A model generated the notes under the pieces. That model had not been told where the DNA came from. It did not search any database and was given only the letters and a program-made list of their open reading frames with translations. This document shows, piece after piece, positions 17,383 through 32,476 of a stretch of 32,476 nt of DNA. Each line of letters opens with the position of its first letter. The first letter of the stretch is position 1. Location: the NCBI GenBank assembly GCA_023666425.1, contig JAMPCA010000016.1, forward strand, positions 1 to 32,476. The letters are read 5' to 3'. Made by a program: the position numbers and the translations under genes. The stretch comes from Muribaculaceae bacterium. GTDB lineage: Bacteria; Bacillota; Clostridia; Lachnospirales; Lachnospiraceae.

Positions 17383-17718
17383 GCAACGCCTAAAATTTGC
17401 GGGATATACCAAATTGAGGATAGACTGGAAGAATTTCTAAGGATTTAGGACTTGTAAAAGGCTGGTTTGTGTGATAAGATTGCATATGAGTTGTATTTGA
17501 CTCTTTTTTTACGCAAGAGTTTGCTTTAGAATGGATAACTACAGAAACTGTAGTGGTTTCAAATTTGACATAGGGATAATTGTCGCCCTGCCGCATTATC
17601 TGTCATGTGTCTGCCGGATACATGACGATCCATGTCAATGTCAGATGGAGGAAACAGCCCGGTTGAGACAGAGCGGGGTGGCGAAGCTTACCCAAAGAGG
17701 GCTATGCGGAGGTGGAGT
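17383..17718 (+). promoter_or_regulatory. Structured leader region of the loaP-polysaccharide operon
   Basis: 336 bases without a convincing gene. Two clear hairpins are present: ACTACAG-AAA-CTGTAGT (17538-17554), and an 11-bp stem at 17602-17626 (GTCATGTGTCT with GGATACATGAC, including two G-U pairs and a three-base loop). A TTGACA occurs near 17568 but has no well-placed -10, so I cannot fix the promoter. LoaP proteins are known to act on RNA hairpins in the 5' leader of their target operons; one of these hairpins is a candidate site. The role is inferred from position. Confidence 0.5.
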
Positions 17719-18258
17719 ATGTGGTATGTCATACAGGTATTGACGGGAGAGGAGGAAAGGACAGCAGATAAATGCCGAAAGCTCATCGGAAGCCGCGATA
17801 GTGACGAAGGCGTGCTGCAGGACTGTTTTATACCCTATACAAAGCGGCAGCGCAGATACGAGGGGCAGTGGCATATCGAAAAGAGGGTGCTTTTTCCCGG
17901 ATATGTTTTTTTGACCAGTGATTCTCCGGAAGAGCTTTTTTTGAGACTGAAAAAAGTTCCGGGACTGACGAAGCTTTTAGGGACGGGGCAGGACATCGTG
18001 CCCCTGACAGCGGAAGAGGAAGCCCTTTTGCGGCGGCTGGGCGGAGATGAACAGATTGTAGAGACCTCCATCGGAGTGATTGAAAATGACCAGATCATTA
18101 TCACCGAAGGCCCCCTGCAGGGAATGGAGGGCTGTATCCGGCGAATTGACAGACATAAGAGGATGGCATGGCTGGAGGTGGAAATGATGGGAAGAAGACT
18201 GGAAGTCAAAGTAGGACTGGAAGTAGTGGAAAAGAACAGAGGACAAGAAAATGTTTGA
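17719..18258 (+). CDS. loaP: LoaP-type NusG paralogue, antiterminator (179 aa)
   Basis: An N-terminal NGN domain begins WYVIQVLTGEEER and contains the FPGYVFL core, which contacts RNA polymerase. A KOW domain near residues 122-175 carries DQIIITEGPLQGMEG and LEVKVGLEVV. At 179 residues and heading a polysaccharide cluster, it fits LoaP, the NusG paralogue that promotes processive antitermination of long biosynthetic operons in Firmicutes, rather than housekeeping NusG, which sits with secE and rplK. The ATG at 17719 is chosen for the GGAGG 6 bases upstream and the family start MWYV. The upstream in-frame ATG at 17632 would add 29 unrelated residues. It overlaps the aminotransferase gene by 8 bases. 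Confidence 0.88.
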   Translation: MWYVIQVLTGEEERTADKCRKLIGSRDSDEGVLQDCFIPYTKRQRRYEGQWHIEKRVLFPGYVFLTSDSPEELFLRLKKVPGLTKLLGTGQDIVPLTAEEEALLRRLGGDEQIVETSIGVIENDQIIITEGPLQGMEGCIRRIDRHKRMAWLEVEMMGRRLEVKVGLEVVEKNRGQENV

Positions 18259-19504
18259 GGCTGACAAACATAGCTTTAAGCCATTTGAAAAAACTGTATA
18301 TTTGAGCTCGCCAACCCCCCATCGGCAGCAGGGAGAGGATCAGTGTGAGGAGCTGACTTATATAAAGGAAGCTTTCGATACAAACTGGCTGTCCACAGTG
18401 GGGAAGAACATTGATGAGGCGGAGCGCATGATCGCCGAGAAAGCCGGCATGAGATATGCGGTAGGCCTGTCCAGCGGGACGGCCGCGCTGCATATGGCGG
18501 TAAAGCTCGCCGGAGTCAGTCAGGGAAGTATCTGCTTTGCCAGCGATATGACCTTTGGAGCGACAGTCAATCCCATCGTATACGAGGGAGGAACTCCGGT
18601 ATTCATAGACACGGAATATGATACATGGAACATGGATCCCCTTGCACTGGAAAAGGCATTTGAACGTTACCCGGCCAATGCGAAGGTGATTGTGATGGCA
18701 CACCTGTATGGGACGCCGGGAAAGCTGGACGAGCTAAAGGCTGTGGCAGATAAATACAAGGCTGTGTTCATCGAGGATGCGGCAGAATCGCTGGGGGCTT
18801 CTTATAAGGGAGCGTGTACCGGTGATGACTGGAAGCCGACGGGGGCTTTCGGAGATGTCGCATGTATTTCCTGCAATGGAAATAAAATCATTACCGGGTC
18901 GTCAGGAGGTTTTCTGCTGACAGATAATGAAGAGGATGCAAAAAAGGTCAAAAAATGGTCTACCCAGAGCAGAGAAGACGCTCCATGGTATCAGCATGAA
19001 GAAGTAGGTTACAATTACCGCATGAGCAATCTGGTGGCTGGTATGATCCGGGGACAGATTCCATATTTGGAGAAACACATTGAGCAAAAAAAAGCTGTCT
19101 GGGAGAGATATAAGGAAGGATTTAAAGAACTTCCGGTATCTATGAATCCCATTGATTTTGAAAAGTCAAGACCCAACTATTGGCTGAGCTGTATTACGGT
19201 GAATCCGGACGCTATGTGCAGACAGGTGAGAGATGACCACGAGGCGCTGTATATACCGGAACATGGCAAAAGCTGCCCGACGGAAATTTTAGAGGCGCTC
19301 GAAAGAATCCGCGCCCAGGGACGGCCGATATGGAAGCCTCTGCATATGCAGCCCATGTACCGGGGGAACGGATTTGTGACCCGGGAGGATAGGTCGGCAG
19401 GAGAGGACATTTTTGACCGCGGACTATGTCTGCCAAGCGACAATAAGATGTCGGAGGAGGAGCAGGATAGAATTATAGAAGTAGTTAAGTCCTGCTTTGC
19501 ATAG
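18251..19504 (+). CDS. DegT/DnrJ/EryC1 sugar aminotransferase, PglE-like (417 aa)
   Basis: A PLP enzyme that aminates a keto-sugar nucleotide. Landmarks: SSGTAAL (74-80) for phosphate binding, EDAAES with D176 against the pyridine nitrogen, and K212 in CNGNKIITG as the Schiff-base lysine. The next two genes resemble PglC and PglD, so the likely substrate is UDP-4-keto-6-deoxy-GlcNAc on the way to N,N'-diacetylbacillosamine; this is inferred from context. A PglF-type 4,6-dehydratase needed to make the substrate is not in the window. It starts inside the loaP stop region, so it is translationally coupled to the antiterminator. Confidence 0.9.
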   Translation: MFEADKHSFKPFEKTVYLSSPTPHRQQGEDQCEELTYIKEAFDTNWLSTVGKNIDEAERMIAEKAGMRYAVGLSSGTAALHMAVKLAGVSQGSICFASDMTFGATVNPIVYEGGTPVFIDTEYDTWNMDPLALEKAFERYPANAKVIVMAHLYGTPGKLDELKAVADKYKAVFIEDAAESLGASYKGACTGDDWKPTGAFGDVACISCNGNKIITGSSGGFLLTDNEEDAKKVKKWSTQSREDAPWYQHEEVGYNYRMSNLVAGMIRGQIPYLEKHIEQKKAVWERYKEGFKELPVSMNPIDFEKSRPNYWLSCITVNPDAMCRQVRDDHEALYIPEHGKSCPTEILEALERIRAQGRPIWKPLHMQPMYRGNGFVTREDRSAGEDIFDRGLCLPSDNKMSEEEQDRIIEVVKSCFA

Positions 19505-19508
19505 GCTA

Positions 19509-19535
19509 TGCCAAACACTGGCACGGTCTTTTTTT
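19509..19535 (+). terminator. Weak hairpin with T-run between aminotransferase and PglC-like gene
   Basis: TGCCA-AACAC-TGGCA (19509-19523) is followed by CGGTC and seven T residues (19529-19535). The stem is only 5 bp and set back from the T-run, so it is at most a leaky terminator or attenuator. Its position inside the operon just after the loaP-coupled gene makes it worth listing. Confidence 0.3.
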
Positions 19536-19562
19536 ATGGAAATAAGTCAGGGAGCGTAAAGT

Positions 19563-20213
19563 GTGAGAAATCAAGTCAGAGAGAAGAACGTGATTCCCCG
19601 CAGAATGGGATTTTACGAAAAATATGTGAAGCGTCCGCAGGATGCGCTGCTATCACTGGCCGCCATGCTTGTGCTGTCGCCGCTGCTGCTTGTGATCGCC
19701 ATTCTGGTGAGGGTGAAGCTCGGAAGTCCGGTTTTATTTCATCAGAAACGGCCGGGGCGGAATGAAAAGATATTTACGTTACATAAATTTCGCACCATGG
19801 CGGATGCGAGGGACTCCGAAGGAAACCTGCTTCCCGATGAAAAGAGGCTGACAGGCTTTGGAAAATGGCTGCGCAGCACAAGCCTGGATGAGCTGCCGGA
19901 GCTTTGGAATATTTTCGTGGGGGATATGGCGGTGGTGGGGCCGAGGCCTCTGCTGGTGCAGTATCTGCCATTATATAACGACAGACAGAAAAAACGCCAT
20001 GAGGTTCGCCCGGGAGTTACCGGCTACGCACAGGTACACGGAAGGAACAGCATTTCATGGGAGGATAAATTTGAAAAGGATGTGTACTATGTGGAGCATG
20101 TATCGTTTTTGGGTGACTGGAAAATCATTTTTGGGACGGTGCGTGCCGTGCTGAAAAGGGAGGGAATCAGCTCCGGGACGGCGGCGACCATGGAGGCGTT
20201 TACTGGAAAGTAG
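19563..20213 (+). CDS. PglC-like monotopic phosphoglycosyl transferase (216 aa)
   Basis: Initiating enzyme that moves a sugar phosphate from a UDP-sugar to undecaprenyl phosphate at the cytoplasmic face. A single hydrophobic re-entrant segment lies at about 28-50 (SLAAMLVLSPLLLVIAILV). The catalytic Asp-Glu dyad is D109-E110 in RSTSLDELPELWN. The PGVTGYAQVHGRNSISWEDKF-type region is present in full. Small size with one membrane segment is the PglC form, as opposed to long WbaP/CpsE types. The start is GTG at 19563 with GGGAG 8 bases upstream. Sits between PglE- and PglD-like genes. Confidence 0.93.
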   Translation: MRNQVREKNVIPRRMGFYEKYVKRPQDALLSLAAMLVLSPLLLVIAILVRVKLGSPVLFHQKRPGRNEKIFTLHKFRTMADARDSEGNLLPDEKRLTGFGKWLRSTSLDELPELWNIFVGDMAVVGPRPLLVQYLPLYNDRQKKRHEVRPGVTGYAQVHGRNSISWEDKFEKDVYYVEHVSFLGDWKIIFGTVRAVLKREGISSGTAATMEAFTGK

Positions 20214-20218
20214 GTTTT

Positions 20219-20893
20219 ATGGATATGCAGGATATTGTCATTATCGGAGCCGGAGGGTTTGGCCGGGAAGTGCAGTGGCTGATTGAGCGGATCAATAAAA
20301 AATGTAAGCAGGACAGTGGAAACGATAAGTGGAGGCTGCTTGGCTATGTTGATGACAATACAGAAACAGGGACAGAAATTGATGGATTACAGGTACTGAT
20401 GACGGTAGATGACCTGGCACAGAGAGAATCCTCTTTGTCTGTGGTATGTGCAATCGGAACATCGGAAGTCAGGAAAAAAGTGGTAAGCCGAATCAGCAGC
20501 AATAAAACTCTGATATTTCCGAATCTGATCGATCCGACAGTGCAGATGTCTGATCGGGTTGAGACAGGAAAAGGAAATATTATCTGTGCCGGTTGTATTT
20601 TGACAGTAGATATAAGCATTAAAGATTTCTGTATTGTGAATCTTGACTGTACGATCGGGCATGATGGAAAGCTTGGCTCTTTCAGTACCTTGTGTCCGGG
20701 TGTAAATATGTCCGGTGAAGTGGAGATTTCCGAGGGAGTGGAAATCGGGACAGGAAGCCAGATTATTCAGGGAAAAAGAATAGCTTCAGGCTGCAAAATT
20801 GGCGCAGGAGCAGTAGTGGTAAAGGATATCGTGGAGCCGGGGACATATGTGGGAGTTCCGGCGAGGAAAGTATTATGGGATAGGGCTAAATAG
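20219..20893 (+). CDS. PglD/NeuD-family sugar acetyltransferase (224 aa)
   Basis: Uses acetyl-CoA to acetylate an amino-sugar nucleotide, here probably the 4-amino group made by the preceding aminotransferase. The N-terminal Rossmann-like UDP-sugar domain starts IVIIGAGGFGREV and runs to about residue 105. A left-handed beta-helix of hexapeptide repeats follows from about 107 to 220. The expected catalytic base is H148 in CTIGHDGKLG. Length is slightly above the 195-210 of PglD, close to NeuD. A 5-base gap separates it from the PglC-like gene. Confidence 0.9.
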   Translation: MDMQDIVIIGAGGFGREVQWLIERINKKCKQDSGNDKWRLLGYVDDNTETGTEIDGLQVLMTVDDLAQRESSLSVVCAIGTSEVRKKVVSRISSNKTLIFPNLIDPTVQMSDRVETGKGNIICAGCILTVDISIKDFCIVNLDCTIGHDGKLGSFSTLCPGVNMSGEVEISEGVEIGTGSQIIQGKRIASGCKIGAGAVVVKDIVEPGTYVGVPARKVLWDRAK

Positions 20894-20895
20894 AA

Positions 20896-22044
20896 ATGTC
20901 AGATACAAAATCAACTTTGTGTATAATATCGTGTTTTGATTGTTATCAGAGCAGAACGAGGTATATAGAAAAATTTTATGGGAATAAAGGCTATGCTATT
21001 GTTCATCTGATATCTGATTTTGATCATGGGAAAAAAATACATATAAAAGAAACGAGAGAAAATGCATATTTAGTCCATGTGCCAGGATATAAAAGAAATT
21101 TATCTATTCGAAGAATTTATTCACATTATGCATTTGCAAGAGCTGTATATAAGGAAGTACAGCAGATTAAGCCTGATATTATATATTGTATGATACCCCC
21201 TAATTTTCTTGTAAAAAAGATATCTAAATATAAAAAGAGGAATTTTGATGTAAAGTTAATTTATGATGTATATGATTTATGGCCTGAATCTATTTTGAAA
21301 CCAAAGTCTATATATAGAATTCCCTATGTGATTTGGAAGTATATACGAGATAAAGATATAGGAATTGCAGATTATGTATTAACAGAATGTGGTCTTTATC
21401 AGAATATTTTAAAAGGAGTACTGAAGACTGGTAAAAAGGGGGTTCTATATGCGACAGAGGAAGATAGCGGGCGCAAGCTGGAAGTATTGCAGGATATGCG
21501 GGAGATTCATTTGTGCTATATAGGAACTATCAATCACATTATTGATGTAGATTCTATCTGCCGTTTAATAATTGAAATTGGGAAAAGAAAACCAGTTGTT
21601 CTACATATTATTGGATTGGGGGAGAACAAGGAAAAATTTATAAAAATGGCCGAGAGAGCCGGAGCAGATGTAATAGATTATGGACCTATTTATGAAAGCG
21701 GAGAAAAGTATAGAATTTTTTCAAAGTGTCATTTTGGACTAAATATGATGAAAAAATCTGTATGCGTGGGGTTGACATTAAAGTCCTTATCTTATTTTGA
21801 GGCAGGACTCCCTATATTAAACAATATCCCGGCAGATACATCTGCATTGGTAAGTAAATATCAGGCAGGTTTTAATATTATAGGCAAGGATGAGGAAATT
21901 AAAATTTCCGAGATGGATGCCCGGGAATATCAAATTCTTAGGGAAAATACAGAATTTATGTTTCAGAAAGAATTTAGTGAAAGAAGAATAATGCAGCATT
22001 TGAGTAAATTAGATAAAGCATTGTGGAGTGAGGAACACTTATAA
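20896..22044 (+). CDS. Glycosyltransferase family 4-like protein (382 aa)
   Basis: GT-B fold glycosyltransferase by pattern. The N-terminal domain includes an IIYCMIPPNF strand and YDVYDLWPESI, a segment typical of GT4 enzymes. The C-terminal domain has LCYIGTINHIID (start of the donor domain), VLHIIGLGENKEKF, and a KSLSYFEAGLPILNN donor-binding stretch near residue 296. It likely adds the second sugar onto the lipid-linked primer. The gene is clearly more AT-rich than the preceding genes; the change falls near its start. It begins 2 bases after the PglD-like gene and shares one base with the next. Confidence 0.8.
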   Translation: MSDTKSTLCIISCFDCYQSRTRYIEKFYGNKGYAIVHLISDFDHGKKIHIKETRENAYLVHVPGYKRNLSIRRIYSHYAFARAVYKEVQQIKPDIIYCMIPPNFLVKKISKYKKRNFDVKLIYDVYDLWPESILKPKSIYRIPYVIWKYIRDKDIGIADYVLTECGLYQNILKGVLKTGKKGVLYATEEDSGRKLEVLQDMREIHLCYIGTINHIIDVDSICRLIIEIGKRKPVVLHIIGLGENKEKFIKMAERAGADVIDYGPIYESGEKYRIFSKCHFGLNMMKKSVCVGLTLKSLSYFEAGLPILNNIPADTSALVSKYQAGFNIIGKDEEIKISEMDAREYQILRENTEFMFQKEFSERRIMQHLSKLDKALWSEEHL

Positions 22045-22889
22045 TGGACAACTATAAGATTCTGGCTGCCATAGTTGCGTTTAATCCGAATATTGATCAG
22101 CTTCAGAGAAATATCCGTGCAATTGTTCCACAAGTAGATGATGTTATAGTCATGGACAATGCCTCTCAAAATGGCGAAAAAATTGAGAAAATTTGTCTGG
22201 AAAATTCTATAATCTATTGGAAAAAAACATGTAATGAAGGAATTGCAAAGCCTCTAAATGACGTGTTTGGTTATGCGAAAGGAAAATATGACTGGGTGAT
22301 AACACTTGATCAGGATTCAGTTTGTGAGCTTGATTATATAAAAAAAGCAAGCCGCTATTTTTCCTCTGAGAAAATAGGTATTATCTCTACCGTCTATTAT
22401 GAAAAAAATTTTGGAAAAATTATTGGGACGGTAAAAGAAGAGAATAAATACCAGTATGTTAAAAGAGTCATTACATCTGCTGCTATTGTTAATGTAAAAG
22501 CGTATGAGAAAACTTGTGGATATGATGAGCTTCTATTTTTGGACTATGTTGATTTTGATTTTTCTGTAAAAATAAGACAGGCAGGGTATAAAATTTTAAG
22601 GATGAATGATTCAGTTTTAACACATGAACTTGGAAATTCCAGTGTTCGGCATTTTCTGATTTGGAGTTTTCGTTTAAGCTCTCACAGTCCTGAAAGGGAA
22701 TTCAACATTGCGAAAAGTATTGTGATTTATATAAGAAAGTATTATAAAACAGAAAATATTCAGAGAGATGTGTTGAGTTTATGTAAACATTTCTTATTAG
22801 CGGTGACATATGAAACGGAAAAAAAAGCTAAGCTAAAATCGCTAATAAAAGGGGTAGTAGAGGGGATGAAAACCCCAATTTTGATATAA
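22044..22889 (+). CDS. GT2 glycosyltransferase, rhamnosyltransferase-like (281 aa)
   Basis: Inverting GT-A enzyme. The N-terminal AAIVAFNPNIDQLQRNI and VIVMDNAS segments and the VITLDQDSV metal-binding motif near residue 90 are characteristic of the RfbF-like rhamnosyltransferase branch of GT2. Branch membership does not prove that rhamnose is the donor sugar; no dTDP-rhamnose genes are visible here. The ATG lies within the stop codon of the upstream gene (one-base overlap). AT-rich. Confidence 0.8.
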   Translation: MDNYKILAAIVAFNPNIDQLQRNIRAIVPQVDDVIVMDNASQNGEKIEKICLENSIIYWKKTCNEGIAKPLNDVFGYAKGKYDWVITLDQDSVCELDYIKKASRYFSSEKIGIISTVYYEKNFGKIIGTVKEENKYQYVKRVITSAAIVNVKAYEKTCGYDELLFLDYVDFDFSVKIRQAGYKILRMNDSVLTHELGNSSVRHFLIWSFRLSSHSPEREFNIAKSIVIYIRKYYKTENIQRDVLSLCKHFLLAVTYETEKKAKLKSLIKGVVEGMKTPILI

Positions 22890-22920
22890 AAAGATTTTGA
22901 ATTAGGAGCCATAAATTATT

Positions 22921-23889
22921 ATGCAAATGGATTATTCAGTTGTAATGGCGACTTATAATGGCGCAAGATTTATTGAAAAGCAATTGGATTCTATCAATAA
23001 ACAGACACTTATGCCAAAAGAAATTATTATTATAGATGATTGCTCAAGTGATAATACGGTTGATTTGATCGAGAAGTTTAGTCAGAAGTCGCATGTTGAA
23101 ATAAAAGTATGTAGGCATCACGAGAATAAAGGATATCAAAATGCATTTTATGAGGGAATGGAATTAGCATCTTGTGAAATTGTGTTTCTTGCTGATCAGG
23201 ATGATATATGGAAAAAAGATAAGGCTGAAAAGATTGTGTATGTATTCAGTATTATACCTAAAATGTTAGCAGTAAATACAAATTATGAATTGATTGATGA
23301 GAAAGGGCAGATTATTAAGGAAAAAAAGTTTTTTAGCAGAAGAAAATCTGTAATATTACAAAAAATTAAAGAAGTTAATGTGCGGCATATATTAGGTTAT
23401 AATATTTCAATGGGGTGTACTATGGCTTTTAGAAAAAAGCTTATTAAAAAAATCAAAGAAAACAGAAATTTTGTATCAGATTTGAAAATACCCCATGACT
23501 GGCTCATTAACTATATGGCAGCAGAGATGCATGGATTATACTATTTGAATGTATCATTGATTTATTATAGGTTGCATTCAAATAATACCTTGGGATTAAA
23601 AAGGGCTGCGAATATTGAAGATAGGATTTTAGGTTATAGAAACATGATTATACAGAAAAGAGAATTAAAGCAGATAAATGAATTTATTTTTGATAATCAA
23701 AAAACCAGAAAAATTTTAAATGGAATGTTACATGCATATGAAAGTATGATGGAAGCATTAGATAAAAGATCCTTGTATAGATATGTACAATGTATTCTAA
23801 AAAATAAAGTTTTGAGATATTTTTCAATAAAAACTATACTATATGATATTGTGCTAATTTTTAAAAGTAACGTGAAAGGTTTTTTATAG
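22921..23889 (+). CDS. GT2 glycosyltransferase (322 aa)
   Basis: GT-A fold enzyme with YSVVMATYNGARFIEKQL, IIIIDDCSSDNT and the metal-binding LADQDDIW motif near residue 98. The LRLHSNNT-like acceptor segment (YYRLHSNNTLG) is conserved among polysaccharide GT2 enzymes. The C-terminal 80 residues are Lys/Arg-rich and probably lie on the membrane. A 31-base gap separates it from the preceding gene. Donor and acceptor sugars cannot be predicted. Confidence 0.85.
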   Translation: MQMDYSVVMATYNGARFIEKQLDSINKQTLMPKEIIIIDDCSSDNTVDLIEKFSQKSHVEIKVCRHHENKGYQNAFYEGMELASCEIVFLADQDDIWKKDKAEKIVYVFSIIPKMLAVNTNYELIDEKGQIIKEKKFFSRRKSVILQKIKEVNVRHILGYNISMGCTMAFRKKLIKKIKENRNFVSDLKIPHDWLINYMAAEMHGLYYLNVSLIYYRLHSNNTLGLKRAANIEDRILGYRNMIIQKRELKQINEFIFDNQKTRKILNGMLHAYESMMEALDKRSLYRYVQCILKNKVLRYFSIKTILYDIVLIFKSNVKGFL

Positions 23890-23931
23890 TGAAGAGCCGA
23901 AACGTTTTATATATTAGGAGATAATAAAGAT

Positions 23932-25032
23932 ATGTTATTAGTAATCTATCTTTTTTTAGCTTTCTTTCCGTTTTTATTTGGGGCAAAAAATAATTATAAG
24001 TATTATGATGTATTTGTGATGATGATAATAAGCGTACTGCTTTATTGTTCCCAAGGGTTACCTGATTTTTCAGTGATGGATAATGTTTATGAGACTATAA
24101 AAAATGGAGTTATCTATACAGATACAGGCATGGGGTGGTTCTTGATATGTAAATTGGGATGTTGGCTGGGAATAGAGCGGTATAAAACTTTAATGACTGT
24201 TATTTTTGTGTTTTCACTTATATTAGTGAGAAGTACAATCAATTATTATGTCACAAGTTATAGGGATAGAGCAATGATTTGGGGAATGTTTTTAATATAT
24301 CCGGTCATGGTGGAAGGAGTTCAAATTCGTTTTTTTCTTGCTGAATCTATAGTATTATTTGGGGTGAGATATATTACAAATAGATCTAAAAGTAAGAATA
24401 TATTATTTTTGCTTTTAGTATTTTTGGCGGCTACAATACATTCTTCTATGATGGTATATGTGATTATGTGGTTATGTGTTACGCTACGAGAGATAAAGGG
24501 AATGGTTCCTTTTTTTTCGACAATAGGGGTTTTGTTTACTTTGGGAAGCTGGGATTTTATTAGAAAAATTGCCTCTTTTTTTGTTAATTCAACAAGAATA
24601 AATGTTTATTTTTATGGCCTTAACTCGCCACAGTTATTGGCTTGTATTGTATATATAGTGTTTACAATCATCTTTATTTGCATTGCTCATGCATTATACA
24701 AGAGACAAAAGGAACTTCAATTAAGTGAAAAGGATTCTTTATTTATACAATTGTTTTATTCAATAACTATATTGACATGCATGATTATTCCATTTACATG
24801 GATGGACGTTAATTTTTTTCGGGTACAAAGAATTTGCTGGATTATGCTTTACATTGCATCTGCTATTATAAAAAAATATGGTAGGAGTAGTGTTGTTTTT
24901 CAAATTTATTCTGGTTCAAACGTAAAAATAAGTATTGATAAAATGCTATGTGCCATTTGTATTTTGGGAAATCTTGCATTTATAAGTGCAAGGTCATGGG
25001 AAATAATTGAGGGGTATTTGTATATAATTTGA
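23932..25032 (+). CDS. EpsG/Wzy-like polysaccharide polymerase, integral membrane (366 aa)
   Basis: A polytopic membrane protein with roughly nine to ten hydrophobic segments starting at residue 1. The pattern fits EpsG-type polymerases: an early YYDVFVMMIIS segment, a polar extracellular loop with PDFSVMDNVYETI and GMGWFLICKL, and RFFLAESIVLFG, matching the conserved Arg-plus-hydrophobic helix of the family. It would join lipid-linked repeat units on the outer face of the membrane. Such proteins diverge strongly, so the call depends on topology and context. It lacks a strong ribosome binding site and is very AT-rich, typical of Wzy genes. Confidence 0.75.
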   Translation: MLLVIYLFLAFFPFLFGAKNNYKYYDVFVMMIISVLLYCSQGLPDFSVMDNVYETIKNGVIYTDTGMGWFLICKLGCWLGIERYKTLMTVIFVFSLILVRSTINYYVTSYRDRAMIWGMFLIYPVMVEGVQIRFFLAESIVLFGVRYITNRSKSKNILFLLLVFLAATIHSSMMVYVIMWLCVTLREIKGMVPFFSTIGVLFTLGSWDFIRKIASFFVNSTRINVYFYGLNSPQLLACIVYIVFTIIFICIAHALYKRQKELQLSEKDSLFIQLFYSITILTCMIIPFTWMDVNFFRVQRICWIMLYIASAIIKKYGRSSVVFQIYSGSNVKISIDKMLCAICILGNLAFISARSWEIIEGYLYII

Positions 25033-25370
25033 TTTGTAGGGAGGGAAATTTTTCAATCTACTGGAGAGATTTCATATTTTAGAGATGGTGAGAACAGTGG
25101 GTTTGGTGGGTACTTTTCCCTTTTTTGTTGTATTCAGTACCCAGTATTTATAAATGTGAAAGCCGATGGATATTATTGCTCTATTTTTTTGCACAGAGCT
25201 GTGTAGATCCATTTTTACACATGTCTACAAGTTTTATTATGTATGCTAGTGTGTTTTATACATACTATAAGATAAAGAAGAAAGGATGCCATGTTTGAAA
25301 TAAAAAACTATAAAAGAGTTAATGATATCAATAAATTGTATAGGATTTTATTATAAAGAAGGTAAAAATT
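25033..25370 (+). other. 338-base AT-rich gap with inverted repeats and a 21-aa ORF
   Basis: No sizeable gene. TGGGTACT (25107-25114) is complementary to AGTACCCA (25136-25143), enclosing a T-rich loop. CACAG-AG-CTGTG lies at 25192-25203. A 21-codon ORF runs from ATG 25291 to TAA 25356, preceded by GAAAGGA, and reads MFEIKNYKRVNDINKLYRIL plus Leu. It may be a leader peptide or the decayed start of a lost gene. No convincing promoter was found. The gap is the longest break inside the glycosyltransferase block. Confidence 0.4.
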
Positions 25371-25389
25371 ATGAAGAAGGTAAAAATTA
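25356..25389 (+). repeat. 18-bp tandem duplication across a start codon
   Basis: AAGAAGGTAAAAATTA occurs at 25356-25371 and 25374-25389 with a period of 18. The first copy supplies the Shine-Dalgarno AAGAAGG and ends on the A of the ATG at 25371; the second encodes residues 2-6 (KKVKI) of the glycosyltransferase. Confidence 0.8.
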
Positions 25390-26420
25390 GCATTGTCATT
25401 CCAGTGTATAATACCCCTATGGAAGCATTATATAGATGTATTCATTCAATTTTAGAACAAAAATACCCCTATTTTGAAGTAATAATTGTGGATGATGGAA
25501 GTAATATAGAGTGCTATGAATACCTTACAAGATTGTCTTTGCTGGATGAACGGATTCTTTTGTACAGAAAGGAAAACGGTGGAGTATCCTCAGCCAGAAA
25601 TTATGGCATTGATAAAGCAAATGGAGACTATATTGCTTTTGTTGATGCCGACGATACGATTGCAGATTCATTTTTTGTAAATGCGATAGGTATACTAGAG
25701 GATGAAGTATTTGATGTTATTATTGGGAATATTGCTTATGTTGATGAAGCTGGGGAAAATTTGGATCAACTCAATAGGAAATGCATTGTGAGAAAAACAA
25801 TACTGCAAGGATCGAGCATTTTACATCTCAAAAAGGCTCTTATGTTCATACCTGACGAAAAATATACTGATATGGTGACAGCTTTGAACTCGCCATGTGC
25901 AAAATTATATAGAATATCTATTGTGAAAAAGCATTTATTTAACACTTGTGTGTCATTTGGTGAAGATGCATTATTTAATCGTGAAGTATTCAATGACTGT
26001 AGAAGCGCAGTGATTATTCCAGAGACGTGGTATATATATTATCAAAACAGCTATTCTGCAATGCATAGACACAAAGCTGAAAAATATATTGAAGGATGCA
26101 AGAAGTTTTTTGAAGAATGGCACAAGATGAATTTGGTAGAAACAGAAATTGATATAAAAGAGCATACATATTATTATACAGTAGTCTCATTCTATGATGT
26201 ATGCCATGGACTTCTAATGTCTAGCGTTGATAAAAAATATTTTAAAAAGACAATAATCAGTTTTTTAGAAGAACCAGTTTTTACAACATTATTTGATTCT
26301 GTAAAAACCAAAAATATATCTGGTCGCATGAATAAGATTAAATTTCTTTTGATGAAATATCGGTTGACGGGATTTATATACATTTATTACAAAAGAAAAT
26401 ATTTTTCAGGAAATATATAA
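25371..26420 (+). CDS. GT2 glycosyltransferase, EpsJ/capsular type (349 aa)
   Basis: GT-A glycosyltransferase with ISIVIPVYNTPME, VIIVDDGSN, ENGGVSSARNYGI and AFVDADDTI near residue 88, the complete nucleotide-sugar and metal-binding set of EpsJ-like capsular enzymes. A FGEDALFNRE acceptor motif follows near residue 201. The C-terminal ~90 residues are basic and hydrophobic, suggesting membrane association. The ATG is inside an 18-bp tandem duplication that provides the ribosome binding site. Preceded by a 338-base gap; followed after 14 bases by another GT2 gene. Confidence 0.88.
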   Translation: MKKVKISIVIPVYNTPMEALYRCIHSILEQKYPYFEVIIVDDGSNIECYEYLTRLSLLDERILLYRKENGGVSSARNYGIDKANGDYIAFVDADDTIADSFFVNAIGILEDEVFDVIIGNIAYVDEAGENLDQLNRKCIVRKTILQGSSILHLKKALMFIPDEKYTDMVTALNSPCAKLYRISIVKKHLFNTCVSFGEDALFNREVFNDCRSAVIIPETWYIYYQNSYSAMHRHKAEKYIEGCKKFFEEWHKMNLVETEIDIKEHTYYYTVVSFYDVCHGLLMSSVDKKYFKKTIISFLEEPVFTTLFDSVKTKNISGRMNKIKFLLMKYRLTGFIYIYYKRKYFSGNI

Positions 26421-26434
26421 TAGGAAATCATAAC

Positions 26435-27400
26435 ATGCTAGAATCAGAAAAAATATCAGTCTTGATGCCGGTCTATAACGGGGAGATATATTTGCATAGG
26501 GCAATACAGAGCATTTTGGACCAGAGCTATCGAAATTTTGAACTCATTATTTTATTGGAATACGGTTCCAATAAAAGAAGCAGAGAGATTATCCGGGGCT
26601 TTAAGGATAATAGAATTCGTGTGATTGAAAATGAGAAAAGGCTGGGGCTTGCAGCGTCTCTCAATGTTGGGATAGGAGCGGCTCGGGGAAGTTATATTGC
26701 GCGAATGGATGCAGATGACGTTGCTTATAAGCATAGATTCCGGAAACAGATGAAACATTTTCGGGAAAACCCGGATATCGTGGTTTCCGGAACGGCAGTT
26801 ATGATGAATGGCAGGCATTATTGGAGACATCAAGACAAATTCGATGCAGTACGTATGGACAGTTTTTTTGAATGTCCTTTTTTCCATCCAACTGTGATGT
26901 GGAGAAAAGATATTTTCATAGAAAATAATTTATTATATCAGGAAGGAATACATGCTGAGGATTATGAATTGTGGACAAGGGCACTGGATTGTGTCAGGGG
27001 CGACAATATCTCTAGTCCATGTCTGATGTACCGGGTGCATGAGCAAAGTAAATCCCATGGTGAAAAAGAGGAACTCATAGACGAAGATGGGATGATAAAA
27101 CAAAATTATTGGGAGAAAAATGGATTTGACTATAGTGCAGATTTGCCAGAGCAGATCAAGGAGTTCTATAACAGATATCCATCATTTCCGAAAAAAGATC
27201 TAATGCTGCGAAGAAAAGCCGTAGATTATTTTTTGGGAAAAACTATGAGTATTAAGGGAATAAGAAAATTATGCCTGAACGAAATTCTCAGATCAGCCGA
27301 AGGTCGGGAGAAGAAAAGAGAATGGAAACCGATTCCCCTTTCGTTATATATCACTTTTCGGGTATGCAAAAGAAGGTTACGCCTTATGCTTAGCCGATAG
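26435..27400 (+). CDS. GT2 glycosyltransferase (321 aa)
   Basis: GT-A enzyme: ISVLMPVYNGEIYLHRAI, FELIILLEYGS (the usual DDGS is replaced by LEYGS), GLAASLNVGI and ARMDADDVA near residue 92. FFHPTVMWRKDIF and EDYELW motifs follow, as in the branch that includes galactosyl- and heptosyl-type transferases of capsule loci. The loss of the aspartates in the second motif is unusual and may alter uracil/nucleotide contact, although the DxD motif is intact. Somewhat higher GC than the genes before it. Last glycosyltransferase of the block. Confidence 0.85.
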   Translation: MLESEKISVLMPVYNGEIYLHRAIQSILDQSYRNFELIILLEYGSNKRSREIIRGFKDNRIRVIENEKRLGLAASLNVGIGAARGSYIARMDADDVAYKHRFRKQMKHFRENPDIVVSGTAVMMNGRHYWRHQDKFDAVRMDSFFECPFFHPTVMWRKDIFIENNLLYQEGIHAEDYELWTRALDCVRGDNISSPCLMYRVHEQSKSHGEKEELIDEDGMIKQNYWEKNGFDYSADLPEQIKEFYNRYPSFPKKDLMLRRKAVDYFLGKTMSIKGIRKLCLNEILRSAEGREKKREWKPIPLSLYITFRVCKRRLRLMLSR

Positions 27401-27407
27401 GTACCCC

Positions 27408-27436
27408 TTGAATTACTAGGGAGTTTATGATAAAAT
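27408..27436 (+). promoter_or_regulatory. Promoter of the two-small-gene cassette
   Basis: TTGAAT (27408-27413) and TAAAAT (27431-27436) are spaced by exactly 17 bases. They begin 8 bases after the end of the last glycosyltransferase gene and 40 bases before the TTG start at 27476. The match to consensus is fair rather than strong. Confidence 0.55.
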
Positions 27437-27475
27437 TAAAAAAGAGAAAGTTATTCATATAAGGGGGGATTGGAG

Positions 27476-27709: not shown

Positions 27710-27723
27710 TACTGAGTGCTACG

Positions 27724-27864
27724 ATGTTTCAAAATCTAATTTATGAGATAGATGATAATAGTCATAAGCTGAATATAACGATTCCAGAAGGTGAGAGTGA
27801 AATCAGGAATATTCGAATTGAGGATTCGCAAGGAAAACTACATGTGTTAAGCGCTTCTATATAG
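27724..27864 (+). CDS. Hypothetical short protein (46 aa)
   Basis: A 46-residue ORF 14 bases after the 77-aa gene: MFQNLIYEIDDNSHKLNIT, IPEGESEIRNIRIEDSQGK, ending LHVLSASI. It looks beta-rich and acidic. Its ribosome binding site is poor, so it is either weakly translated by coupling or the tail of a decayed partner gene. I do not recognise it. A terminator follows 45 bases after its stop, closing the cassette. Confidence 0.4.
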   Translation: MFQNLIYEIDDNSHKLNITIPEGESEIRNIRIEDSQGKLHVLSASI

Positions 27865-27908
27865 AAGTTGGAAGAAGGTGATGGAGGGAAGCGCAGGTAT
27901 TTTATTGA

Positions 27909-27942
27909 GAGGCTCTGTGAGAAATCAGGGGGCTTCTTTTTT
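27909..27942 (+). terminator. Rho-independent terminator inside the polysaccharide locus
   Basis: GAGGCTCT (27909-27916) pairs with GGGGGCTTC (27928-27936 region) using several G-U pairs around a loop, followed by six T residues (27937-27942). It lies between the small-gene cassette and the heptose genes, which have no evident promoter of their own within the next 40 bases. Confidence 0.65.
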
Positions 27943-27981
27943 GTGTGAGAAAAACAGATAATAAGGAGCTTATATAAAAAA

Positions 27982-28968
27982 ATGATTATCACAAGAACTC
28001 CCTTTCGTGTGAGCTTTTGCGGTGGTGGCAGTGATCTGCCAGCCTTTTATGAGAAACATGGAGGGTGTGTACTGAGCACGGGGATACAAAAATATATGTA
28101 TTTATCAGTTCACCCGGCATTTGACCCTGCTGAAACCGTGCTAAAATATTCACAGACGGAGCAGGTCAGGGATTACAGCGAGATAGAACATAAATATTTT
28201 CGGTGTATTTTAGAAAAATTCGGACTAAAGGGTGTGGAAATTACGAGTACGGCAGATGTGCCTGCCGGGACGGGACTGGGCTCATCCAGCGCCTTTACGG
28301 TAGGTCTGCTCCATGTACTCTATAGCTATACTGGAAAATTTGTGTCAAGGGAGCGGCTGGCGGAAGAAGCCTGCCGCACAGAAATCGTTGATCTGGGGCA
28401 GCCGATTGGCAAGCAGGATCAGTACGCTGCAGCGTTTGGCGGATTAAATTTCTATTCCTTTAACCGGGATGGAAGTGTGGCGGTGGAGCCGGTAATTATG
28501 CAGGAGGAATCTTTTGAAAAGCTGGAGCATAATCTTATGCTTTTCTATACTGGCAGTGTCCATTCTGCTTCGGATATCCTGAGAGAGCAGGGAAAGAATG
28601 TCACGGAAGGGGAAAAAGAGCAGGGACAGCTTCGGATGTGTCAGATGACCCGGGATTTAAGGGAGGCATTACAGAACAATTCTGTTGATACACTGGGAGA
28701 AATACTGGATGAGAGCTGGAAAATTAAACGAACACTGGCCAGCGGTATCAGCAATCCCCTGATTGATGAGAATTATGACAGGGCAAAAAGGCTTGGGGCT
28801 GTCGGTGGAAAGCTTCTGGGTGCAGGAGGGGGCGGATTTTTGCTTTTCTATGTGCCGGAAAAAGAACAGGGGCGCCTGCGGCGCGGGATACAGCTGCAGG
28901 AAATGAATTTCAGCATGGATCGTCAGGGTTCATCGGTAATCTATGTGGGACAGAAGTTAAGGAGATAA
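27982..28968 (+). CDS. hddA: GHMP kinase, D-glycero-D-manno-heptose 7-phosphate kinase type (328 aa)
   Basis: Phosphorylates the anomeric position of heptose 7-phosphate, giving the 1,7-bisphosphate. All three GHMP features are present: TRTPFRVSFCGGGSDLP at the start, the ATP-binding PAGTGLGSSSA at 94-104, and KLLGAGGGGFLLFY near 273. The start motif and GKQDQYAA segment match HddA-like enzymes. L-fucose and related kinases share these, but GmhA and GmhB genes downstream favour heptose. AAGGAGC precedes the ATG. GC content returns to the level of the housekeeping block, unlike the glycosyltransferase genes before it. Confidence 0.88.
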   Translation: MIITRTPFRVSFCGGGSDLPAFYEKHGGCVLSTGIQKYMYLSVHPAFDPAETVLKYSQTEQVRDYSEIEHKYFRCILEKFGLKGVEITSTADVPAGTGLGSSSAFTVGLLHVLYSYTGKFVSRERLAEEACRTEIVDLGQPIGKQDQYAAAFGGLNFYSFNRDGSVAVEPVIMQEESFEKLEHNLMLFYTGSVHSASDILREQGKNVTEGEKEQGQLRMCQMTRDLREALQNNSVDTLGEILDESWKIKRTLASGISNPLIDENYDRAKRLGAVGGKLLGAGGGGFLLFYVPEKEQGRLRRGIQLQEMNFSMDRQGSSVIYVGQKLRR

Positions 28969-28970
28969 AA

Positions 28971-29924
28971 ATGCAGAATATACTAATTACCGGGGGAGCG
29001 GGGTTTATCGGCGCAAACTTGGCCGCAAAACTGACAGAGCTGGGATACCGGGTGGTATGCGTGGACAATTTTACTCTGGGAAGCAGGGATAATGTGTCCC
29101 GTTTGCTGGGAAATGAAAATTTTGAGCTGTGTGAGCTGGACGCAACAAATAAAGAAGAGCTGGAAAAGCTGATGGCGATTCAGAAAACAGATATGGTGTT
29201 TCATCTGGCAGCAAATTCCGACATACAGAAAAGTGGGAAAACGCCAAAGATTGATCTGGACAATACATTTCTCACAACCGCATCTGTGCTGGAGGCGATG
29301 CGTGCAAACAATATAAAGCAGATATTTTTTGCTTCCACCTCCGCTGTTTATGGGGAAAAGCCGGGAATCAGACTGAAAGAGGATACGGGAGGCCTGCAGC
29401 CGATTTCCTATTATGGTGGGGCGAAGCTGGCTTCCGAGGCGATGATATCTGCCTATGCGTATATGAACGATATGAAAGCAACGATTTTCCGCTTTGCAAA
29501 TGTAATTGGCCCGGGACTGACCCATGGGGTAATTTTTGATTTTATTCGAAAGCTTAGGGAGAATCCGAAACGGCTGGAAATATTGGGCGATGGAACGCAG
29601 AAAAAGCCATACATTCATGTTGCGGATTTATTGAATGCAATGTTGCAGGTGACAGGGGAGTCTGCCGACGGTGTAGAAATCTATAATGTGGGAGTGGATT
29701 CCGATACGACGGTCACGGAGATTGCAGACATTGTATGTGAAAATATGGGACTAAAAGGAGTGGAGTACCAGTATACCGGGGGAAGCCGGGGATGGAAGGG
29801 AGATGTCCCTTCTTTTTCTTATAACCTGGATAAAATCCATGCCAAAGGCTGGCGGGCGGACCATACATCCAATGAGGCTGTCAGGGATACGGTGGCGGCC
29901 GTGCTGAATGGGGGCGGATTATGA
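28971..29924 (+). CDS. NAD-dependent epimerase/dehydratase, extended SDR (317 aa)
   Basis: A nucleotide-sugar modifying enzyme with the NAD motif GGAGFIGANL (8-17), VDNFTLGS as the adenosine-ribose loop, an STSAVYG strand with catalytic Ser/Thr, and the Y148-GGA-K152 catalytic pair. It resembles UDP-glucose 4-epimerase relatives. Placed between the heptose kinase and the heptose nucleotidyltransferase fusion, it may act on the activated heptose, for example by 4-epimerisation or dehydration; this is inferred. It starts two bases after the kinase stop and overlaps the next gene by 4 bases. Confidence 0.88.
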   Translation: MQNILITGGAGFIGANLAAKLTELGYRVVCVDNFTLGSRDNVSRLLGNENFELCELDATNKEELEKLMAIQKTDMVFHLAANSDIQKSGKTPKIDLDNTFLTTASVLEAMRANNIKQIFFASTSAVYGEKPGIRLKEDTGGLQPISYYGGAKLASEAMISAYAYMNDMKATIFRFANVIGPGLTHGVIFDFIRKLRENPKRLEILGDGTQKKPYIHVADLLNAMLQVTGESADGVEIYNVGVDSDTTVTEIADIVCENMGLKGVEYQYTGGSRGWKGDVPSFSYNLDKIHAKGWRADHTSNEAVRDTVAAVLNGGGL

Positions 29925-31294
29925 TCGGAAATGTTGTGGGCGACCGTTATATTGCAGTGATTCAGGCCGGGGGAAAAGGAACAAGAATGCGTGAACTGAC
30001 AAAGGACAGGATTCCCAAGCCTCTTTTGCGATTAAATGGAAAGCCGATGCTTCAATGGCAGATTGAGAACATTTCCCGCTATGGGATTCAGGATTTTGTG
30101 ATTATTGTCGGACATCTCGGAGAGAAAATCCAGGAATATTTTGGTGATGGATCCGCCTATGGTGTACACATTGCGTATATAGCAGAAGAGACCGATTGTC
30201 CTCTTGGATCTGCCGGCGCCCTATATTATCTCAAGCAATGGCTTTGCGGCAGGAATGTGTTTTTGGTATATGGTGATATAATCTTTGATATTGCACTGGA
30301 AAGGATGCTTGCTTTTCACGAATCTATGGGTGGGAAGGCAACGCTTCTCGTTCACCCCAATGCGCATCCTTATGATTCGGATCTGGTGATTTTGGATGCA
30401 TCAGGAAAAGTGGCTGGTTTTGATGAAAAGGGAAGCAGGCGGGATTATTTGTATGAAAACATAGTAAATGCAGGGATCTATATACTTACGGCAGATGTGA
30501 TTGAGACGGTTCAACGGCCGGTAAGGCTGGATTTTGAGAAGAACGTTTTAAAAGAATTGATACAGAAGGGACAAGTATATGGATACCGGACGCCGGAATA
30601 TGTAAAAGATGCAGGAACGCCGGAGAGGTTTTCTTCCGTGTCTTATGCGCAGAGGGAGGGGCTTTTGGAAGCAAAAAACCTTGCATATAAACAAAAGTGC
30701 ATCTTTTTGGACAGGGACGGCACTCTCAATGTTTACCGGGGGCTTATTACAGAAACAGAACAGATCGAACTGGAGGAGGGGGCTGCTGCTGCCGTTCGCA
30801 GGATTAACCAGTCGGAATATCTGGTAATCGTTGTGACCAACCAGCCTGTAGTGGCCCGTGGTATGTGTAGCATAGAAGATGTGGAAAATATTCATAAAAA
30901 GCTGTCGGTTTTGCTTGGTGTTCAGGGAGCTTTTCTGGATGATATTATGTTTTGTCCGCATCACCCGGATAAAGGATATCCAGAGGAAAATCCGGCGTAC
31001 AAGATTTTATGTAACTGTAGAAAACCGGGAACCGCGATGATAGAGAAAATGGCAGAGAAGTATCATATTGACTTGTCACAGTCTTATATGATTGGGGATA
31101 CCACGACGGATATACAGACGGGAATAAACGCGGGTCTTAAAACGGTACTGCTTCAAACGGGGGAGGCCGGGAAAGATGGAAAATATGAAGTAAAACCGGA
31201 TATGATAAGTGCGAATCTGCTGGATGCGGTAGAGGAAATTCTGGGACAGAATAGTAATCTTGAAAACGAGGAAATATGTAATGGTGGATTATAA
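29921..31294 (+). CDS. HddC-like nucleotidyltransferase fused to GmhB-like phosphatase (457 aa)
   Basis: Two enzymes in one chain. Residues ~8-240 are a sugar-1-phosphate nucleotidyltransferase: QAGGKGTRM at 15-23, IPKPLL at 31-36, GSAGALYYL, and a VYGDIIFD acidic site. Residues ~258-445 are a HAD phosphatase: D264 and D266 in FLDRDGTLN, VVTNQP, GDTTTD, and the GmhB zinc set C345, H347, C364, C366. Known GmhB cleaves the 7-phosphate of heptose 1,7-bisphosphate, and HddC then attaches GMP. The fusion joins consecutive steps. The donor nucleotide (GDP likely) is inferred. ATGA overlap with the upstream gene. Confidence 0.9.
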   Translation: MIGNVVGDRYIAVIQAGGKGTRMRELTKDRIPKPLLRLNGKPMLQWQIENISRYGIQDFVIIVGHLGEKIQEYFGDGSAYGVHIAYIAEETDCPLGSAGALYYLKQWLCGRNVFLVYGDIIFDIALERMLAFHESMGGKATLLVHPNAHPYDSDLVILDASGKVAGFDEKGSRRDYLYENIVNAGIYILTADVIETVQRPVRLDFEKNVLKELIQKGQVYGYRTPEYVKDAGTPERFSSVSYAQREGLLEAKNLAYKQKCIFLDRDGTLNVYRGLITETEQIELEEGAAAAVRRINQSEYLVIVVTNQPVVARGMCSIEDVENIHKKLSVLLGVQGAFLDDIMFCPHHPDKGYPEENPAYKILCNCRKPGTAMIEKMAEKYHIDLSQSYMIGDTTTDIQTGINAGLKTVLLQTGEAGKDGKYEVKPDMISANLLDAVEEILGQNSNLENEEICNGGL

Positions 31295-31853
31295 AAGTGA
31301 TATTAGAAAATATATCGAAATGGAGAGAGAAGCGCTGACTTCCTTACCAGTAGAGGATATCAATCAGGTAATGAATGTCTTAGAGCAGGCAAGGCTGGAT
31401 GGAAGACGTGTTTTTATTTGCGGAAATGGTGGCAGCGCATCCACAGCGTCCCATTTTGAATGTGATTTTAATAAGGGAGTCAGCTATGAGCAGGATGTAA
31501 AATATGATTTTGAGTGTCTCAGTGACAATGTGCCCATGATGATGGCAATTGCAAATGATATCGGATATGAAGATGTCTTTCTGGTGCCGCTTAAAAACAA
31601 ATTGAAGCCAAAGGATGTAGTGATCGGCATTTCCGGGAGCGGGAATTCCGAGAATGTGGTGAGGGCACTGGAATACGCAAATGAACGGGGAGCAGAAACG
31701 ATTGCCCTTGTAGGATATGATGGCGGAAAGCTGAAAAAGCTTGCAAAGTACCATGTACATGTGAATATAGAGAACATGCAGATTACGGAGGATCTGCATT
31801 TGGTGCTGGATCATATGATGATGTATATTTTGTCTGGAATGAAAGGGTGCTGA
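31281..31853 (+). CDS. gmhA: Sedoheptulose-7-phosphate isomerase (GmhA, SIS domain, 190 aa)
   Basis: Converts sedoheptulose 7-phosphate to D-glycero-D-manno-heptose 7-phosphate, the entry step of heptose activation. The SIS fold shows FICGNGGSASTASHFECDF near 46-63 and GISGSGNSENVVRAL near 115, the phosphate-binding Ser clusters, and a C-terminal EDLHLVLDHMMM helix with the catalytic Glu/His typical of GmhA. The ATG at 31281 follows GAGGAAA by 7 bases; the TTG frame from 31260 is less likely. It overlaps the fusion gene by 14 bases, so the four heptose genes are tightly coupled. Confidence 0.92.
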   Translation: MVDYKSDIRKYIEMEREALTSLPVEDINQVMNVLEQARLDGRRVFICGNGGSASTASHFECDFNKGVSYEQDVKYDFECLSDNVPMMMAIANDIGYEDVFLVPLKNKLKPKDVVIGISGSGNSENVVRALEYANERGAETIALVGYDGGKLKKLAKYHVHVNIENMQITEDLHLVLDHMMMYILSGMKGC

Positions 31854-31854
31854 A

Positions 31855-32476
31855 ATGAAAATTTTGGTTACGGGAGCAAATGGATATCTTGGACAAGGTA
31901 TTGTTAGCCAATTGCTTGATCGTGGGCATGAGGTTATTGCAACAGATTTTTCAGTCAGTTATGTCGATGTAAGAGCAAAGAGAATTTCTTGTGATTTATT
32001 TGCGATTGATTCGCCTGATGCATATTTTGGGTTTCCTGAAGTCATATTGCATTTGGCTTGGAGAGATGGATTTGTTCATAATTCGGTTGCACATATAAAA
32101 GATTTACCCAAACATTACATTTTTCTAAAAAGAGTAATCGAAGAAGGGGTAAAGCAGCTGGTTGTGATGGGAAGTATGCATGAGGTGGGATTTTTTGAGG
32201 GAAGCATCAACGAAGATACACCTACGAATCCTTCGAGTTTATATGGAATAAGCAAAAATGCATTAAGACAGTCGATTACATTGCTATGCAAAGATAATGA
32301 TACAATTTTACAGTGGTTGAGAGGATATTATATAGTTGGAAATTCAGAATTTGGAGCTTCAATTTTTTCTAAAATAGTGCAGGCTGAAAAGGACGGAAAG
32401 GATACGTTTCCATTTACATCTGGTCAGAACCAGTGGGATTTTCTGGATTATGAAGAATTTTGCAATCAAGTAGTGG
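31855..32476 (+). CDS. NAD-dependent epimerase/dehydratase, C-terminus cut by the window edge
   Basis: 207 codons are visible with no stop before the edge. The start MKILVTGANGYLGQGIV gives the NAD-binding GxxGxxG, HLAW lies near residue 62, VVMGSMHEVG carries the catalytic Ser region, and Y-GIS-K near residue 131 is the YxxxK pair. This is an extended SDR with a different sequence from the epimerase at 28971. It starts two bases after the gmhA stop and so belongs to the same operon. It may be a second step in modifying the activated heptose or act on another sugar of the repeat unit. Confidence 0.88.
   Translation, partial: MKILVTGANGYLGQGIVSQLLDRGHEVIATDFSVSYVDVRAKRISCDLFAIDSPDAYFGFPEVILHLAWRDGFVHNSVAHIKDLPKHYIFLKRVIEEGVKQLVVMGSMHEVGFFEGSINEDTPTNPSSLYGISKNALRQSITLLCKDNDTILQWLRGYYIVGNSEFGASIFSKIVQAEKDGKDTFPFTSGQNQWDFLDYEEFCNQVV

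Follow-up and report, generated by a model that had tools for sequence, protein, structure and literature searches.

Introduction

The best described relatives of the genes considered here belong to the GmhA-HddA-GmhB-HddC pathway, and published work on its enzymes, which we cite throughout from excerpts of the papers, provides the residues with which a new member can be compared. In Escherichia coli GmhA, Glu65 is the proposed base and His180 the proposed acid, and the zinc ligands of the gonococcal enzyme are H61, E65, H183 and Q175 (PMC5387315). The GHMP heptokinase WcbL uses the alpha anomer; its residues R13, D22, S118-S120, Q162 and D163 have been mutated, and Q162 has been linked to room for the heptose (PMC4691232). 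In HddC, Glu80 binds guanine (PMC6981941). Here we analyze a contig of 32,476 nucleotides from a Lachnospiraceae genome (JAMPCA010000016.1, assembly GCA_023666425.1; the whole stretch is called the window), which carries a cassette of four genes encoding a GHMP kinase (kinase A), an extended SDR (SDR1), a nucleotidyltransferase-phosphatase fusion and a SIS-domain isomerase (SIS-A). The cassette is a real and conserved variant of heptose-type nucleotide-sugar synthesis, built on a widespread fusion and not categorically new, and we think it rather likely that it supplies a surface polysaccharide with an activated heptose, in parallel to GmhA-HddA-GmhB-HddC yet distinct from it.

Results

The open reading frames of the window agree with the layout given by an initial annotation of the sequence, that is, kinase, SDR1, fusion, SIS-A and a further SDR (SDR2) from position 27982, and the cassette genes are spaced by 2 nt or overlap by a few bases. 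The 457-residue fusion of a nucleotidyltransferase with a GmhB-type phosphatase, central to that annotation, is confirmed by its domains, by an AlphaFold model (mean pLDDT 90.9) and by structure comparison of this model, which gave matches to both domains. For the nucleotidyltransferase fold these were a GMPPA/GMPPB chain (29.4), MurU (28.3) and HddC (26.1), values that indicate the same fold and are too close to discriminate. The idea that such a fusion is exceptional did not hold: a protein search returned at least 8,000 scored candidates, and all of the 120 matches listed hold NTP-transferase plus HAD-type Pfam domains, 114 of them with all three motifs of our strict signatures. Database names among the matches listed include 'HAD-IIIA family hydrolase', 'D,D-heptose 1,7-bisphosphate phosphatase' and 'histidinol-phosphate phosphatase family protein', and the fusion of one relative locus (L036, in G153, a genome of the window's family) is identical to P0093 of Pseudobutyrivibrio sp. 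YE44, in keeping with a placement of this family as Lachnospiraceae. Among the papers listed in searches of the open-licence literature we noticed no description of this fusion.

The phosphatase half has the DxD nucleophile motif and the CxH...CxC zinc loop, with the zinc set C345, H347, C364 and C366 present as initially annotated. It resembles GmhB and scores 149.9 bits with the PRK08942 model, under the cut-off of 178; by likeness it is plausibly a heptose 1,7-bisphosphate phosphatase of the GmhB type. In an unrooted tree the nucleotidyltransferase halves of the fusions form a clade of their own (29 rows, 100/99) outside the HddC clade, which comprises 6jq8 and six Lachnospiraceae proteins (99/96; the 6jq8 branch is long, as is T2_L074, and the repeated second frames of L004 and L005 were left out). 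The firm clustering with non-heptose enzymes that the annotation had named as evidence against itself was thus not found. The position of the guanine-binding Glu80 of HddC is Glu in 29 of the 29 fusions (E89 in the window), a residue that is unspecific, being also Glu in the UGP structure 8x7s, and none of the 29 has Asn at the UTP-binding Asn position of MurU. The proposal of a GDP-heptose type therefore stands as plausible for the nucleotide, with the reservation that this Glu is no specific mark.

Some fusions depart from this pattern. One (L060:8010-9266, on contig C45 of G283) has a phosphatase half without the CxCRKP of the zinc loop and without the Gly-Thr after DxD, while its nucleotidyltransferase half seems intact; elsewhere in that genome lies another fusion (L040), whose phosphatase half matches well. 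Nucleotidyltransferase-HAD fusions of a different, divergent kind, with frames of 404-455 aa, occur in five Lachnospiraceae loci (L070-L074, in G193, G241, G273, G251 and G004), and in G193, G241, G251 and G273 they adjoin a GHMP kinase.

The isomerase of the cassette differs from GmhA at the metal site. Compared with the zinc and catalytic set of GmhA, SIS-A keeps H58 and H178, and has Asp62 in place of Glu65 and Glu170 in place of Gln172. This His/Asp/Glu/His set is found in all eight aligned cassettes, and each of the SIS-A motif tests held for 119 of 122 sequences, both for 116 (120 homologues listed, which include the window's own entry and are otherwise 73-92% identical, plus two fused copies). 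In an unrooted tree the SIS-A clade (9 rows, 100/99) is split with 99/95 from four GmhA structures and eight SIS proteins of a second cassette type, here called group B, which keep the standard GmhA residues; the SIS of L099, which is the window itself, and the X-containing SIS of L055 were left out, and L101 and G079 have long branches. The best NCBIfam match of SIS-A is nevertheless GmhA, at 108.6 bits, and its homologues are named 'SIS domain-containing protein', 'phosphoheptose isomerase' or 'D-sedoheptulose 7-phosphate isomerase' in the databases. Judged by tree and residues, SIS-A is not GmhA. The window genome has no second SIS match at 1e-8.

Searching 388 genomes drawn from the phylum at 1e-25 gave SIS matches in 25, two of them from the window's own family. 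Among the 28 SIS places other than the window, 22 have His/Glu/Gln/His, three His/Asp/Glu/His and two His/Asp/Glu/Gln, while the remaining one no longer has the set. The three with the SIS-A pattern are in G583, G593 and G383, and because the G383 protein falls among GmhA relatives in the tree, His/Asp/Glu/His alone is no clean group marker. In G593 (L129:6901-8304) the SIS protein is fused to a HAD domain, with genes for a PfkB kinase, a LacI regulator and a periplasmic-binding-type protein nearby.

Kinase A, in turn, keeps all of the residues mutated in WcbL, as R9, D18, S101-103, Q145 and D146. It scores 148.7 bits with the HddA model, whose cut-off is 600; the kinase of a canonical Lachnospiraceae cluster (L148, see below) likewise stays under it, with 296.6. 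The fusion-associated kinases are split with 100/100 from the clade of WcbL, 3k85 and HddC-linked kinases in an unrooted tree, in which L139, L143 and G079 have long branches.

For the remaining gene, SDR1, the top-scoring solved structures are 8rdg (264 bits) and 3ehe, 'GalE-1' (237 bits), aligned over nearly the full length, and many of the structures related to it bear the annotation UDP-glucose 4-epimerase. The motifs STSAVYG and YYGGAK (YxxxK) line up with both structures. A Ser/Thr-Tyr-Lys triad marks epimerases and an Asp-Glu pair marks 4,6-dehydratases; SDR1 has the triad and, with STSAVYG, lacks the pair. GalE inverts C4, between glucose and galactose. The structures 8rdg, 8rdh and 8rdi gave only chance matches in the open-licence literature searched.

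The distribution of these genes was followed in 299 whole Lachnospiraceae genomes, including that of the window. The fusion was found at 1e-60 in 27 (in G027 and G295 the best alignment covers only part of it), the kinase at 1e-25 in 50 and a SIS protein at 1e-8 in 55. The kinase is present in 25 of the 27 genomes with the fusion and in 25 of the other 272 (p = 2e-20, a value that overstates independence since the genomes are related), and the fusion is absent from G292, the only genome of the window's genus in the sample. SDR1 is more restricted: at 1e-70 it occurs in nine genomes, namely all eight with kinase A plus G079. Natural fusions tie the same genes together, two proteins (P0023, P0067) being nucleotidyltransferase-HAD-SIS-A and two (P0025, P0049) SDR1-nucleotidyltransferase-HAD; P0067 stands for 53 member sequences and the other three for one each. 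Since gene order, co-occurrence and fusions agree, SDR1 and SIS-A would act on one substrate line, and on these genomic grounds we regard SDR1 as part of the pathway.

In G079 (L144:9466-15505) an SDR1-like gene lies together with a GHMP kinase, a 459-aa nucleotidyltransferase-HAD fusion and a SIS protein with a very different active-site region; by eye, its SIS protein and fusion differ from those of the window. This group is a possible third cassette type.

Neighbourhoods of 28 relative loci were examined. Seven (L006, L036, L037, L038, L043, L049 and L060) have the order of the window, kinase - SDR1 - fusion - SIS. In another 11 the fusion stands with a more distant, group-B kinase and without a close SDR1, seven of these 11 having a different SIS protein too, and in ten no kinase lies within the stretch examined. 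At L050, L052, L053, L054 and L057 the same fusion type is found beside a group-B kinase and a GmhA-side SIS. Five loci (L044-L048) are isolated fusions: the stretch of about 17 kb examined at each contains neither a GHMP kinase nor a GmhA-like gene, although these genomes have a GHMP kinase elsewhere; at L045 and L047 the fusion adjoins what appears by eye to be a PfkB-type kinase gene.

Two genomes hold both kinds of enzyme. In G088, contig C6 (L146) carries kinase A - SDR1 - SIS-A without the fusion, and a group-B kinase and GmhA-side SIS as well, both sets within 17 kb; the fusion is alone on contig C7 (L045). As the only GmhB-type HAD match of this genome at 1e-12 comes from its one detected fusion (other nucleotidyltransferases were not searched for), a single fusion apparently serves both sets. 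In G111 a window-type cassette (L049, contig C8) coexists with an HddC-HddA-GmhB-GmhA cluster that is complete and unfused (L148, contig C26). Two complete sets in one cell speak for two products, and the cassette probably makes something other than the canonical cluster does.

The features of the window are collected in Table 1. Heptose-type sugar-phosphate activation next to polysaccharide genes in a Lachnospiraceae genome, as initially annotated, is supported. The annotation also noted two SDR enzymes with the pathway, of which SDR1 is a member of the conserved cassette and SDR2 is not: SDR2 adjoins none of the seven relative cassettes, and a homologue of it at L051 (194 bits) is separated by about 7 kb from a fusion that stands alone.

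Table 1. Coordinates of the cassette and its surroundings in the window
Feature	Position	Strand	Basis or content
Kinase A, GHMP-family sugar-phosphate 1-kinase, 328 aa	27982..28968	+	WcbL residues kept, tree
SDR1, archaeal GalE-type extended SDR, probable NDP-sugar 4-epimerase, 317 aa	28971..29924	+	structure relatives, motifs
Nucleotidyltransferase-phosphatase fusion, 457 aa	29921..31294	+	domains, AlphaFold model, structure comparison
Nucleotidyltransferase domain, fusion residues 9-251	29945..30673	+	E89 = HddC Glu80 position
GmhB-type HAD phosphatase domain, fusion residues 257-445	30689..31255	+	zinc set C345/H347/C364/C366
SIS-A, SIS-domain isomerase, 190 aa, GmhA-related but not GmhA	31281..31853	+	metal-site H58, D62, E170, H178
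SDR2, second extended SDR, incomplete at contig end 32476	31855..32476	+	outside conserved cassette
Surface-polysaccharide genes upstream of cassette	17632..27400	+	NusG paralogue, DegT aminotransferase, initiating sugar transferase, PglD-type protein, glycosyltransferases, EpsG-type protein

The polysaccharide genes start (17632-20893) with a NusG paralogue, which is followed by genes for a LegC-like aminotransferase, an initiating sugar transferase and a PglD-type protein; this set suggests an amino-sugar as first residue, and none of the window genes scanned was identified as encoding a UDP-GlcNAc 4,6-dehydratase. The 581-bp gap before the cassette (27401-27981) contains a 77-codon frame (27476-27709) without Pfam match, followed by a possible remnant, and a terminator-like hairpin (27913-27930) lies immediately upstream of kinase A. 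Further upstream (14622-16625), IMP cyclohydrolase-like and AICAR formyltransferase genes adjoin as separate genes, with no fused PurH.

Discussion

The analysis shows the genes themselves, how the fusion folds, that catalytic and zinc residues are conserved, the co-occurrence, the natural fusions and the separation in the trees from GmhA, HddA and HddC. In the steps proposed next, the substrate, its anomer, the nucleotide, the position epimerised and the sugar finally made are inferred. SIS-A would produce an aldoheptose 7-phosphate from a ketose phosphate, which is most likely sedoheptulose 7-phosphate; kinase A would place a phosphate on C1 (alpha); the phosphatase half of the fusion would remove the C7 phosphate and the nucleotidyltransferase half would add the nucleotide, most likely GMP from GTP; and SDR1 would epimerise the NDP-heptose, most likely at C4. 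The assignment to heptose rests on the GmhB-like phosphatase and on the occurrence of this fusion type with the GmhA-side isomerases of group B. The product would probably be a C4-epimerised NDP-heptose, GDP-linked and alpha-anomeric, and possibly D-glycero-D-galacto-heptose. As a GalE-type SDR belongs to the pathway, D-glycero-D-manno-heptose, the sugar named in the initial annotation, is probably not the end product. Of the textbook GmhA-HddA-GmhB-HddC set first proposed, the GmhB-like half stands, and the isomerase, kinase and nucleotidyltransferase fall outside the GmhA, HddA and HddC clades.

Several observations weigh against a heptose route. Three of the four enzymes, SIS-A, kinase A and the nucleotidyltransferase, lie outside the characterised heptose clades, and the HAD tree, which has several long-branch rows and was not used in our conclusions, is too weakly resolved to place the phosphatase half. 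With SIS-A outside GmhA, its substrate need not be sedoheptulose 7-phosphate. The His/Asp/Glu/His pattern is also found in SIS proteins of apparently catabolic settings, near an FGGY kinase and a TIM-barrel protein in G583 and near a PfkB kinase, regulatory and binding-protein genes in G593, so that enzymes of this type may use other sugars; in G383 (L106) the same pattern belongs to a protein grouping among GmhA relatives. In G170 the SIS protein is 46% identical to that of the window, and no kinase A or SDR1 was detected in this 79% complete genome. Finally, the NCBIfam scores of SDR1 for galE (151 bits) and dTDP-glucose 4,6-dehydratase (148 bits) are nearly equal, with HldD at 100.

If SIS-A were simply the GmhA of an ordinary pathway and SDR1 a stray GalE, one would understand why GmhA is its best NCBIfam match, why metal-binding residues are still found at all four metal positions, why G383 has the pattern among GmhA relatives and why so many solved relatives of SDR1 are UDP-glucose 4-epimerases by annotation. 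We hold this to be unlikely, since SIS-A is split from the included GmhA proteins, G111 carries the canonical pathway and a window-type cassette together, and SDR1 tracks kinase A in eight of eight genomes and is fused to nucleotidyltransferase-HAD in two proteins, which is unexpected for a stray gene. That relatives of heptose enzymes work instead on another ketose phosphate (a pentulose, hexulose or octulose), giving an activated non-heptose sugar, would agree with the position of SIS-A, kinase and nucleotidyltransferase outside the characterised clades and with the catabolic-type settings of same-pattern SIS relatives. It appears quite improbable, however, in view of a GmhB-like phosphatase that is apparently common to the GmhA-side cassette in G088 and of Q145 of kinase A, the counterpart of the WcbL residue tied to room for heptose (PMC4691232).

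A different role for SDR1, as C6 epimerase (HldD type), C4 dehydrogenase (Cj1427 type) or dehydratase, draws on the additional matches to the dehydratase and HldD models and on C. jejuni, where GDP-heptose is modified via a C4 dehydrogenase and a 4,6-dehydratase (PMC10680097). The GalE model and the archaeal GalE-type structures (237-264 bits) score higher, though, and with the dehydratase Asp-Glu pair missing from STSAVYG we see hardly any room for such a role.

A further proposal of the annotation is relevance to the host via ALPK1. The ALPK1 agonists are described in commentaries as beta-heptoses (PMC11461863, PMC11573728) and are tied to heptose nucleotidyltransferases of the HldE kind (PMC11461863). 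The window genome (98% complete) has no HldE/HldC-type nucleotidyltransferase above cut-off, its one match reaching 64 bits against 181.5, and weak matches to the HldE model are found in control genomes too, such as Bacillus subtilis. Because the agonists are beta, WcbL acts on the alpha anomer and no HldE-type match exceeds the cut-off, the suggestion is unsupported.

A more specific version of the route, in which SIS-A would yield the C2 epimer D-glycero-D-gluco-heptose 7-phosphate and SDR1 would invert C4 to give GDP- (or other NDP-) D-glycero-D-galacto-heptose, would fit a changed isomerase beside a GalE-type epimerase; we offer it tentatively, by analogy, and give it small weight. D-glycero-D-galacto-heptose is a constituent of polysaccharides of Eubacterium saburreum, a member of the Lachnospiraceae. 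Among the papers listed in searches of the open-licence literature we noticed no description of heptose in Lachnospiraceae, E. saburreum included; this heptose has been modelled in a Thermoplasmatales pilus N-glycan (PMC12448462). If correct, the cassette would provide a direct route to a heptose absent from the GDP-manno-heptose scheme of C. jejuni, as excerpted (PMC10680097). If the heptose route proposed above is right, some Lachnospiraceae have a second set of enzymes for heptose activation, in part unrelated to the first, and names given for likeness to the D-glycero-manno-heptose pathway mislead in this branch. The isomerase and the epimerase make a specific and cheap biochemical test worthwhile.

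Among known systems, the ADP-heptose pathway (HldE, GmhB, HldD) shares with the window a GmhB-type phosphatase and an SDR epimerase. It differs in its kinase, which in HldE is of the PfkB type and in the window GHMP, in the HldE-type enzyme, for which the window genome has no match above cut-off, and in the anomer, expected here to be alpha rather than beta. The archaeal-type GalE proteins (3ehe, 3ko8 and 8rdg, the first two of which we take to be archaeal) align with SDR1 nearly end to end, catalytic motifs included, whereas SDR1 is bound to a sugar-phosphate kinase/isomerase cassette. The canonical cluster of G111 (L148) is also from Lachnospiraceae and has the same reaction types, but consists of four separate genes, with its kinase in the HddA clade and with higher scores than the window for HddC (179 against 89 bits) and gmhA (139 against 109 bits). 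The GmhA-HddA-GmhB-HddC pathway, as in the excerpted account of C. jejuni capsular polysaccharide (PMC10680097), uses an isomerase, a GHMP kinase, a HAD phosphatase and a nucleotidyltransferase in the same logical order and likewise serves a surface polysaccharide; compared with it, the window cassette has its phosphatase and nucleotidyltransferase fused, a dedicated GalE-type SDR and three enzymes outside the clades of their counterparts.

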